Source: Bdellovibrio sp. 22V | GTDB lineage: Bacteria > Bdellovibrionota > Bdellovibrionia > Bdellovibrionales > Bdellovibrionaceae | Assembly (NCBI RefSeq): GCF_030169785.1 | Contig: NZ_CP125854.1 | Span: 1 to 64,000, forward strand | Direction: 5' to 3' | Length of the DNA: 64,000 bases | Shown: positions 43,920 through 48,105 of the stretch, piece after piece | Numbering within the stretch: the first letter of the stretch is position 1 | Layout of the letters: every line of letters begins with the position of its first letter | Notes under the pieces: generated by a model | The model's input: the letters and a program-made list of their open reading frames with translations, nothing else | What the model was told of the DNA's origin: nothing | Database searches by the model: none | Program-made: the position numbers and the translations under genes

Positions 43920-44476
43920 AGTTGGTCGGCATTTTTCTTTTTATCTTGTGGGTCGTTTCCCCATCCTGGGCTCTTGAAAGAGAAGTGAGTTACGACGGAT
44001 CACCGAACTGGAATGAGTTTCGTCATTTTGTTTTAGAGCAACAATACGAAGACGAAAAAATGGGTTTGGCTTATATGATTTCCGGCGCTGTGGCAGCGGT
44101 CGGCGGAACTATCGGGTATTATCAATCGGAAGAACTTTTCAGCCGCACGATTTTTGCGATCACTTCGAACGTAGGTCTGGCGGCGATGGGCCTGGGGGCC
44201 AGCTATTATTGGACGGGGAACGAGGTCGATTCGTTCTTTTACGCCATTGACGGATCGTCTTTGTCTTTGGCGGAGAAAAACGAAGTTTTACAGCGCTATC
44301 TCTTCAAGGATCGTGAAGAAAAAAGAAAACGTCGCTGGATTCGCGTGGCCACCTACGCTTTGATTGCGGCGGCCAATTTTTATAGTGCTTCCCGGGAAGA
44401 AAGCGCGGATTTGCGTTCCGTTTTCTATTTTTTGGGTGGAGCAAATACGGTTTTAGCAATCAGTTATAGTTTTTAA
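43916..44476 (+). CDS. Membrane protein, unknown function
   Basis: A 186-residue protein with a signal or anchor helix (LVGIFLFILWVVSPSWA) and further hydrophobic segments (MGLAYMISGAVAAVGGTIGY, TSNVGLAAMGLGASYYW, WIRVATYALIAAANFYSA, YFLGGANTVLAISY). No family recognised. GTG 43916 has AGGAG upstream and overlaps the previous gene as GTGA. It ends by overlapping the convergent fibre gene by four bases (TTAA). Confidence 0.7.
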   Translation: MKLVGIFLFILWVVSPSWALEREVSYDGSPNWNEFRHFVLEQQYEDEKMGLAYMISGAVAAVGGTIGYYQSEELFSRTIFAITSNVGLAAMGLGASYYWTGNEVDSFFYAIDGSSLSLAEKNEVLQRYLFKDREEKRKRRWIRVATYALIAAANFYSASREESADLRSVFYFLGGANTVLAISYSF

Positions 44477-46236
44477 TTATTATTTACAGGGCGACAGCAG
44501 TACTGCATGTAAGTGTTCGTAATAGTGTACTCGTTCACTCCGTAAGCGCCACCGACTGTGTCGCAAGATATGGCTGTTGCTGTCGCTCCGCCGAAGACGG
44601 CATTGATGAACGTCATTTCACCCACAGTCATTTTTCCATTCTTACAAGCATTGATAATTTGGCCCGCACTGCAAAGATCTCCTTTGTTGGCGGAGCAGTT
44701 ATCTAATGTCTGTGTGAAGTTTCCTGTCATTCCCAGTCTCTTGATACAGAATTGCGAGCCGCGATCGACGAGCAGCCAACCTGAATCACAGCCTCTTTTG
44801 CGCAAGACCCATTTTTGATTTGCGCCGTCGAAAACTAACGAGTCGCCATCGGCATAACCCGCAGAAACGTCGACCATCTTACCTTGAATTTTCGCGACTG
44901 TCGGGGATGGGTAAGTGCCGCCCAAATCTCCCGAGGCCGTTCCGTTCGGTGGCAGAGATGTGGGGAATGAAATCGAAGTATTGCTTGCTGCTGTGATCCG
45001 ACCTTGCTGATCCACGGTGATCGTAGGCACCATGGTCGCTCCGCCATAAGTCGCCGGTGTTACGGAGGTGTTCGCAAGAGAGAGCGTGCCTGAGTTTGTG
45101 ATCGTACCGCCAGTTAGACCCGTACCCGCAGCAACGGAGACAACCGTTCCCGCGTTAGTCGTGTCAGCCGCCGCTTTCCATTTTGCACCATCATATTTTA
45201 GAACCTGACCTGTCGACGGAGCAACAGTGTCTACGAGCACGCCTTGGATTCTTGTGACAGTGGTCGCTCCCGTCGCGCCCGTGACGTCGCCACTTAAATT
45301 GATATTGATGTTGTTACACTGCCACGTATTTGTCACAGAGACGAAACCCAAAGTCTGATTTGCTCCGCACGATGCCGGCATTTGCGAGACGTCAATTTTG
45401 TTATTAAGACTTGTCGCCAGTCCCGTAATATTCCCGATCGTGATTTCAGAGCTGATCCAATTTGCACCGTCATATTTTAAAAACTGATTGGCAGTTCCGG
45501 TCGGAAGTGGTGAAGCCGCGGCCGGAGCCGGCACGCATGAAAGTGTTGATCCATTTGCAGTTAGAATATTTCCGTTACTACAAGCGGGAAGCGGTTGTTT
45601 TGCAAACGCCGCGACGGTCGGATCCGTTTCATTTTTTAAATAAGCAGAAGAACTGCCATTGGCTAAGTTCATTAACTGCGTCGCTTCCGCAACGGTAAGA
45701 GACGGCACTGTGCCGCCGTCAACTCGAAGAAGGTTTGGGGCTGTATAACCGGAAACTTGCGAAGCATTTTGCGCCTCTTTGGCTTCCGTCGAGTACGGGA
45801 CGGCCTTAATCACATGGTCTGGAGAGAAACTCTGCCAATTCGCTCCGTCAAAAAAAGAAACTTTTAAAAGTCGTTCGTCAGAAAGAGCCGGGGTGTACGT
45901 TGTACCGCCCTCACAGTTAAGAAGACTTTTGTTGGAAAAAACGGCTTCAACTGTCGCAACCGGGCTTGTCGGGAAAACGCGCGTGCCTGAACCTAGCGAT
46001 AAGCTAAATCGTCCCTTTGTTTCAGCCAGATTCACGTTTATGATCTGCTCGCGATAAAGTGTACATTGCCCATCGGGGCTTGTAACCGAAAGAAGAAAAC
46101 TGACGGCGGAGTTGTCAAACGGTGTGTCGTCGGGCTTTAAGATTCTTCCACTCACATGATAACCAGAGGCCTCTGCTTGCGAGACCATCAAGAAAAAGAG
46201 TAGTAAAAGAGAAGACGCAAAGTTCCTCGGTTTCAT
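44473..46236 (-). CDS. Trimeric fibre-like adhesin (MAT-type)
   Basis: A 587-residue secreted protein (signal peptide ends near AEA). A beta head (YHVSGRILKPDDTPF...) about residues 25-150 ends in AVPYSTEAKEAQNASQVSG. A phage-tail-fibre-like stalk follows with repeated YDGAxW units (LKYDGANWISSE, LKYDGAKWKAA) and low-complexity T/G/S runs such as VVSVAAGTGLTGGTI. The cysteine-rich tip (about 480-587) includes GCDSGWLLVDRGSQFCIK, LDNCSANKGDLCSAGQII and YMQYCCRPVNNN. This build is that of the mosaic adhesive trimer (MAT) fibres of Bdellovibrio bacteriovorus, which bind prey. Family is inferred from architecture. Receptor unknown. A small lipoprotein gene precedes it. Confidence 0.83.
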   Translation of the reverse strand: MKPRNFASSLLLLFFLMVSQAEASGYHVSGRILKPDDTPFDNSAVSFLLSVTSPDGQCTLYREQIINVNLAETKGRFSLSLGSGTRVFPTSPVATVEAVFSNKSLLNCEGGTTYTPALSDERLLKVSFFDGANWQSFSPDHVIKAVPYSTEAKEAQNASQVSGYTAPNLLRVDGGTVPSLTVAEATQLMNLANGSSSAYLKNETDPTVAAFAKQPLPACSNGNILTANGSTLSCVPAPAAASPLPTGTANQFLKYDGANWISSEITIGNITGLATSLNNKIDVSQMPASCGANQTLGFVSVTNTWQCNNININLSGDVTGATGATTVTRIQGVLVDTVAPSTGQVLKYDGAKWKAAADTTNAGTVVSVAAGTGLTGGTITNSGTLSLANTSVTPATYGGATMVPTITVDQQGRITAASNTSISFPTSLPPNGTASGDLGGTYPSPTVAKIQGKMVDVSAGYADGDSLVFDGANQKWVLRKRGCDSGWLLVDRGSQFCIKRLGMTGNFTQTLDNCSANKGDLCSAGQIINACKNGKMTVGEMTFINAVFGGATATAISCDTVGGAYGVNEYTITNTYMQYCCRPVNNN

Positions 46237-46300
46237 TCCCTTATCTTTTCGGAATGATTCGTATAAATCCGAAGTTATTTGTAGAAAATTTGTTCGAAAT

Positions 46301-46573
46301 TTATTGGACGTGAGAGTTCAAAATAAGACTGTAGCCACCGGCAGAACGACGAGGTTTCCCCGTGTCCTCTTTTGAAACAGAAATCTCAAGCTGATACCCT
46401 TCGGCCGTTTGCGCGGTGCTGGCGACGGCATTTTCAACGCTAAGACTCGTACGTAAAGTTGAATCTCCTGCCGCAGGAGTTTTACTTCGTAGCATGGTCA
46501 CTTGTGGTGTTACGTCGGAACACCCGCTCAAAAGTCCTGCTGTTATGAAGAGTCCTAAAATAAATGTTTTCAC
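46301..46573 (-). CDS. Small lipoprotein upstream of the fibre gene
   Basis: A 90-residue lipoprotein from GTG 46573: signal helix TFILGLFITAGLLSGC with lipobox LSGC, then about 75 polar residues (VTPQVTMLRSKTPAAGDSTL, YQLEISVSKEDTGKPRRSAG). A longer in-frame start at TTG 46597 lacks any advantage. It lies 64 bases from the fibre gene and in the same direction, so it may be an anchor or partner. No family recognised. Confidence 0.7.
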   Translation of the reverse strand: MKTFILGLFITAGLLSGCSDVTPQVTMLRSKTPAAGDSTLRTSLSVENAVASTAQTAEGYQLEISVSKEDTGKPRRSAGGYSLILNSHVQ

Positions 46574-46674
46574 ATGAGACTTATCGGAACCGGCCAATCT
46601 GGACTTTAGGACCTTCAGTTTTCAGTGAAATAAACAGATAAGGAGTTGATAAGAATTGGAAAAGGAGAAAATCG

Positions 46675-48105
46675 GTGAAGCACTCTAGGGCATCCTTTTG
46701 GTTTTATACATTCTTTTGTTTCGCTTCGTTTGCGATGTTCGGCGTGTACAGCGCTTATAACTCTCCCGATAGCAGCGAGTTGGCTTCTTCCGCAGAAGAA
46801 CAAGTCATTCAACAGTTGAACAAGGTAAATAAGTCTTTGGTGTCTTTGAGCACGCCAAAAGATGACATGAGTTGTTCCTGCCAATTTGGCGGTGAACCGA
46901 ACATCTTGAGTTTTGAAAAACCTGAAGACTGCGGACCCGAGCGCAACTATTTGCAAGATAAGTTCGTGGCGTTTAAAAAGGCCGACACAAAAGGTCTTTT
47001 CTCTGCACCGAGAGATTATTCAAAAACCGCGAGCATTTTGCCTCGTAAGTGTGCTCTTTATATCATGAGACGTTTTTGGCGAGACCGCGCCCGCACTCCT
47101 GAAGAGAAAAGAGAAGCCGATCTTGAGCACAACCGTACGGCAGGTCCCAAAGAACAGCGTGACGTCAAAGATCTGAAAGATTACAAACACGACCCGCATT
47201 TGTTTTCAAAGTGCGACAAAGACGCGAATGGCACGCCCGAGCGTTACGGTCACAAAGCTTGTGTGACTGAAGACTATGTGAACTTGGTGTACAACTCTTT
47301 GATTGATGTTGCCGATTGTTTGGATGTGCCGGCGAAATTTATTGCGCCCAAACTTTCTAACGAAAGCGGTTTGCACGTCAATGCGTTCGGTCTTGTGAAT
47401 GACGGTGGTATCGGCCAATTCACAGATCAAGCCCTTGTCGACGTGGCTCAAAACTTCAACAATTTTAAAGGCCGTATCCTTAATAGCACGAAAGAATCCT
47501 GTCAGCGTTTGAAGTCGTTCCCGGGCGCAGTTCCAAGTTCTCCGGACGATATCATGACAGCGGATGCGAACCGTTGCCATGCGATTTCAACGCCGCCAAA
47601 CCCTCTTAGAAGTTTGGTTTACTATGGAATCTTCTATCACTCGACAAAAAGAAACGCGAACAATGCGTTTAACAAGTCAGCGGATTCTAAAGATCCGAAC
47701 TTCAAAAGTGCTGAAGAGCTTATGAAGCAGGCGGGGATCGGTTCTTACGATATCGAAACGGTGAAAGAGATGCTTTTTGTGATGGCTTACAACGCGGGCC
47801 CGGGTCGTCCTGCAGTTTTCTATCGTGAATGGTTGAAGTATCGTCTTGCGACGATCAAAAAGTATCCGATTACGAAAGCGGATTTCAATATGAACTATTG
47901 GCCTGAGCGCGATCAAATGAAAGCAAAAACAGGCGAAGCGCGTGTTAAAGCGATGAATAAAAAAGGCAAACCGTTGACGTTGGCTGAATATATGTTTGCA
48001 TATAAAGACTCTGTGTATATCGCGGCGGTGAAAGCTCAGGCGACGGTTTTGGATAAAGGATTGGGAGAAGGCACATGTACGGAAAATCACTTCTTAGAAC
48101 TGTAA
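46675..48105 (+). CDS. Lytic transglycosylase-like secreted protein
   Basis: A 476-residue protein with an N-terminal export helix (ASFWFYTFFCFASFAMFGVY). The SLT-type core has the catalytic glutamate Glu230 in KLSNESGLHVNAFG, the GGIGQFTDQALVDV stretch and MAYNAGPGR at the C-terminal side, all typical of lytic transglycosylases. The polar Cys-rich N-terminal half (CSCQFGGEP) is unusual. GTG 46675 has AAAAGGAG before it. It likely cuts peptidoglycan in the periplasm of self or prey. The next gene overlaps its end by 31 bases. Confidence 0.82.
   Translation: MKHSRASFWFYTFFCFASFAMFGVYSAYNSPDSSELASSAEEQVIQQLNKVNKSLVSLSTPKDDMSCSCQFGGEPNILSFEKPEDCGPERNYLQDKFVAFKKADTKGLFSAPRDYSKTASILPRKCALYIMRRFWRDRARTPEEKREADLEHNRTAGPKEQRDVKDLKDYKHDPHLFSKCDKDANGTPERYGHKACVTEDYVNLVYNSLIDVADCLDVPAKFIAPKLSNESGLHVNAFGLVNDGGIGQFTDQALVDVAQNFNNFKGRILNSTKESCQRLKSFPGAVPSSPDDIMTADANRCHAISTPPNPLRSLVYYGIFYHSTKRNANNAFNKSADSKDPNFKSAEELMKQAGIGSYDIETVKEMLFVMAYNAGPGRPAVFYREWLKYRLATIKKYPITKADFNMNYWPERDQMKAKTGEARVKAMNKKGKPLTLAEYMFAYKDSVYIAAVKAQATVLDKGLGEGTCTENHFLEL

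Follow-up and report, generated by a model that had tools for sequence, protein, structure and literature searches.

Does the small lipoprotein encoded just upstream of a mosaic adhesive trimer (MAT) fibre hold that fibre on the surface of a predatory bacterium? We addressed this question at a locus of Bdellovibrio sp. 22V, within a window of 64,000 nucleotides (NZ_CP125854.1, positions 1 to 64,000) from a single-contig genome of 3.60 Mb with 26 MAT heads. The initial annotation had placed a 587-residue fibre protein here and a lipoprotein gene 64 bases upstream, and both open reading frames were found as placed, separated by 64 bp. The features used below are as follows.

44473..46236, minus strand: MAT fibre gene, 587 aa, ATG start (NF053851 match, 8OKS tip match, synteny with Bd2740)
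45721..46206, minus strand: end of the signal peptide and MAT N-terminal head domain, aa 11-172 (NF053851 match)
44803..45516, minus strand: aa 241-478, stalk of repeated modules, YDGANW/YDGAKW and Cys-loop (resembles the stalks of other MATs)
44476..44793, minus strand: aa 482-587, tip that is C-type-lectin-like and rich in cysteine, with 8 Cys (phmmer match to 8OKS)
46301..46573, minus strand: small lipoprotein gene, 90 aa (mature form 73 aa), GTG start (lipobox LLSGC, MAT-linked homologues, purifying selection)
46319..46405, minus strand: lipoprotein aa 57-85, holding the C-terminal twin repeat GYQLEISV ... GYSLIL (motif common to the MAT-linked lipoproteins examined)
46675..48105, plus strand: divergently oriented, conserved neighbour gene encoding 476 aa, our synteny marker (identity of 73-75% where it adjoins the Bd2740-type pair in three genomes)

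The neighbour gene had no Pfam match; its by-eye name, lytic transglycosylase, lacked Pfam support and was dropped. Elsewhere in the same genome, positions 534000-543500 carry a tandem of three MAT genes.

The fibre belongs to the non-S74 class of MATs. MATs were recognised by a conserved, β-rich N-terminal domain of ~130 aa after a signal peptide and by a C-terminus that is either an S74 domain or another adhesive tip (NS74), and the fibre has the head together with an NS74 tip. The NCBIfam model NF053851 (Bdello_MAT_N) matched residues 11-172 at E 1e-50 (171.7 bits against a cut-off of 60), and residues 482-582 matched the solved tip of Bd2740 (PDB ID code 8OKS, residues 518-627) at E 3e-11 in phmmer. 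The similarity to known MAT fibres that had been set as a test of the assignment was therefore found at both ends of the protein. A Pfam scan of the 587 residues gave no match above threshold, and a search of the fibre for an S74 domain was likewise negative. The cysteine-rich tip described in the initial annotation was borne out, with 8 of the 14 cysteines lying in aa 482-587, but its YDGAxW stalk repeat held only in part: three such motifs occur (FDGANW at aa 129, YDGANW at aa 255, and YDGAKW at aa 348), at least as many appeared in none of 20,000 shuffles of the protein, and two lie in the stalk, whereas the first falls within the head. The stalk (aa 241-478) has many matches to other MAT stalks in the same genome, mostly at 40-58% identity, and the heads of many of these MATs match as well. 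The window fibre is thus a further example of an already known kind of MAT. By analogy with 8OKS and the published fibres (PMC10769870), it is presumably trimeric; an AlphaFold single-chain model, built on an alignment of two rows, had a pLDDT of 37 and was not used.

We compared the locus with that of the characterised MAT Bd2740 in strain HD100, which we identified as a 627-aa protein from its match to 8OKS at E 9e-74. An 843-aa MAT matching Bd2734 sits near it, in agreement with PMC10769870, and our count of 21 MAT heads in HD100 equals the number published there. The order of neighbour gene (75% identical), lipoprotein gene, and MAT gene is the same at the two loci, and the proteins share a head, a stalk, and a C-type-lectin-like tip family. 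Shared synteny and a shared tip family together identify the window fibre as the orthologue of Bd2740, which likewise has a homologous lipoprotein gene upstream. The two differ in length, 587 aa against 627 aa, the window stalk being shorter near the tip, and identity is 56% in the head but only 28% in the tip. Bd2740 is reported to be displayed on the cell surface, and its deletion to slow predation (PMC10769870, PMC11003981); among six MATs deleted, slowed predation on E. coli was seen for two, Bd2734 and Bd2740. The receptor-binding protein Mtd of a Bordetella phage has a C-type-lectin fold like that of the Bd2740-type tip and is reported to be the sole homologue whose mode of trimerisation matches that of Bd2740 (PMC10769870).

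As the initial annotation had proposed, the tip is the variable part of the fibre. Across eight orthologues, mean identity was 52% in the head, 54% in the stalk, and 47% in the mature lipoprotein but 33% in the tip, which is the fastest-diverging part of the fibre. Among three close relatives (L067, L068, and L070; genomes G001, G004, and G007), dN/dS was 0.08-0.13 for the tip, compared with 0.03-0.07 for the head and 0.01-0.03 for the neighbour gene. The tip is therefore the least constrained part yet on average under purifying selection, and positive selection on it is, on average, unsupported. Swapping of tips within the Bd2740 orthologue group is also unsupported, since most orthologous tips keep one lectin-type cysteine pattern; they look like products of fast substitution inside one lectin family. 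A search of the window's own genome gave no second copy of the tip. Mtd of the Bordetella phage is diversified by a retroelement. The reverse transcriptase family PF00078 was not found in the window's genome, so we reject a diversity-generating retroelement as a source of variation in the Mtd-like tip here. In the same three relatives, dS was 2-3 times as high in the fibre gene as in the lipoprotein gene beside it and in the neighbour gene, a rough figure near saturation, which suggests recombination of fibre alleles between lineages and means that fibre and lipoprotein do not have exactly the same history.

We then considered the small upstream gene. Its 90-aa product has a hydrophobic leader followed by the lipobox LLSGC, whose cysteine is invariant across 9 aligned sequences; lipidation at Cys18 and a location in the outer membrane are predicted. 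Position 46597 offers an alternative TTG start, but it is the GTG start to which the orthologues align. Small size, no match to any Pfam or NCBIfam model among the family members scanned, and a surrounding region in which no sigma-70 consensus promoter was recognised might together suggest a chance or regulatory reading frame beside a fibre gene that stands alone. That idea is contradicted by a dN/dS of 0.06-0.09 in the three close relatives and by retention of the lipobox in homologues, and we regard it as extremely improbable: the upstream open reading frame is a real gene.

To follow its distribution, we used 24 Bdellovibrio genomes, that of the window and 23 others. A single-sequence search of the 23 recovered 8 homologues in 7 genomes, and all 8 had a MAT gene directly downstream on the same strand, at ~20-60 bp. 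A profile built from these homologues revealed three further lipoprotein forms: diverged small lipoproteins of the CS(M/L/F)(D/E)AS type that precede MATs; lipoproteins of ~187 aa in many genomes, with an insert that appears Ig-like by eye and a stop codon overlapping the MAT start; and large lipoproteins that are not MAT-linked and whose ends resemble, by eye, RCC1, Ig-like, or sulfatase-modifying-enzyme domains. All aligned MAT-linked small forms end in a twin repeat, GYxVxxxV...GYxVxxxV (also written GYxLxxxV). With a profile of 16 mature forms, the 24 genomes gave 53 matches at E<1e-3, and in 32 of these a MAT head lay downstream at a distance of -130 to +150 bp. The fairest counts are 8/8 and 16/37, because MAT adjacency had been the reason for including 2 of the 16 forms in the profile; the latter (16 paired among the 37 matches outside the profile) corresponds to a binomial p of ~1e-22 at a 1% chance rate when shared ancestry is ignored, and shared descent makes the counts less independent than the binomial assumes. 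Linkage thus exceeded chance, and the pairing that the initial annotation had seen at one locus is real and recurrent. The two genes overlapped by 4 bp in 15 of 38 pairs.

In HD100, the pairs involve Bd2740, Bd2734, and the 922-aa MAT Bd3182. Bd2734 and Bd3182 have heads of the same family as the window fibre, each with an upstream twin-repeat lipoprotein gene that overlaps the fibre gene by 4 bp, but their tips (TNF-like in Bd2734, S74 in Bd3182) are unlike the window tip. The Bd2734 lipoprotein belongs to a different N-terminal class (CSMEAS), and that of Bd3182 is the longer, 187-aa form, carrying the Ig-like insert that the window lipoprotein lacks. Under their presumed locus tags, whose exact form is unconfirmed, we found no discussion of the HD100 lipoprotein genes in the Bdellovibrio papers searched, and the word “lipoprotein” is absent from the text of PMC10769870; the family and its pairing with MATs appear to be undescribed in the literature searched.

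The family also extends beyond MAT genes. Most of the matches that do not lie directly upstream of a MAT (21 of 53) represent a single near-universal copy (loci L210 and L216), which usually precedes a conserved “VVDVRRNITL” gene. In HD100 (L210; 3183000-3198000), two S74 MATs in tandem come immediately before this copy; MATs stand beside it in some species only, and elsewhere none is nearby. A second MAT-independent copy, of the TGFVSGSS type, lies in a conserved housekeeping neighbourhood (L211 and L212; G000:1421027). The lipoprotein family is present in 10 of the 20 genera of the taxonomic family, with some copies adjoining MATs. We dismissed the N-terminal motif CSDxxPxVxxLR as a MAT-specific mark, since it also occurs on RCC1/Ig-type lipoproteins. 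Large lipoproteins of ~860-1430 aa (L105, L106, L109, and L112) share it as C(S/T)DxxPxVxxLR and carry Ig-like and RCC1-like repeats or a sulfatase-modifying-enzyme-like end. This motif may be a sorting signal for Bdellovibrio surface lipoproteins.

The lipoprotein varies with the fibre head more than with the tip. Lipoprotein distance correlated with head distance at a partial Mantel r of 0.72-0.73 given the tip and with tip distance at 0.29-0.38 given the head; in one pair of loci (L195 and L197), the lipoproteins are 97% and the heads 96% identical, against 36% for the tips. Physical linkage can also produce this co-variation, because the head adjoins the lipoprotein on the DNA. A different kind of evidence came from a gene fusion in one genome (L110, 192-1814; G005:C1:1241000-1243600). 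It encodes 540 aa that begin with a lipobox and CSDINPEV, continue as a MAT stalk, and end in an S74 chaperone domain, without the usual MAT head; a gene with a MAT head follows 19 bp later. The fusion shows that the genus encodes a MAT-like fibre of lipoprotein type.

These observations are compatible with a two-gene adhesin unit in which the lipoprotein anchors the fibre head, a reading to which we assign a probability of roughly 0.5. The small lipoprotein would be exported and lipidated at its cysteine, and its conserved C-terminal twin β-repeat would bind the conserved head. This contact would tether to the outer membrane a trimer that would otherwise be soluble, with the head at the predator surface, the repeat stalk projecting outward, and the disulphide-rich, C-type-lectin-like tip touching prey. 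Binding of lipoprotein to head, anchoring, and both prey binding and the choice of prey by the window tip are all putative steps, proposed from sequence comparison. We favour anchoring because of the co-variation with the head, the L110 fusion, and the expectation of the MAT authors that the head binds a surface element, which they left unidentified (PMC10769870).

Roles in folding or export fit the data almost as well as anchoring. A periplasmic or outer-membrane chaperone, or an export or assembly factor, could escort the head or seed trimerisation; the upstream position and the 4-bp overlaps would suit a helper made just ahead of its client, the lipoprotein tracks the head, and it is short and of low predicted structure (an AlphaFold model at pLDDT about 43, from a two-row alignment, is unreliable and was not used). 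A lipoprotein-type start fused to a stalk, however, fits tethering better than escorting, and most MATs have no adjacent lipoprotein copy, so that we judge a chaperone or export factor to be rather unlikely. We think it quite unlikely that the protein is an independent surface lipoprotein, for example a second adhesive or structural element, that is merely co-expressed and makes no contact with the fibre. The family members that stand apart from MATs would agree with such independence, as would the occurrence of C(S/T)DxxPxVxxLR on lipoproteins without MATs, but the pairing recurs with MATs of different tip types, and the co-variation is closer with the head than with the tip.

Anchoring by a dedicated lipoprotein has a limit within the window's genome. 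Because an adjacent upstream copy stands beside only ~4 of its 26 MATs, a dedicated anchor would not be general unless the other fibres share one in trans. The lipoprotein family with the twin GYxLxxxV repeat could then be the surface element that holds MATs, through dedicated copies at some loci and the near-universal copy in trans; we propose this wider scheme tentatively and with some doubt.

The best evidence to date on how a predatory bacterium can recognise prey of many kinds comes from MAT fibres. Because the authors who described them call the partner of the fibre base unidentified (PMC10769870), the lipoprotein family matters as a candidate for it. Recurring before MAT genes, and preceding three MATs that have already been deleted and crystallised in HD100, this family provides a concrete, testable candidate for the element that may hold the base of the fibre.
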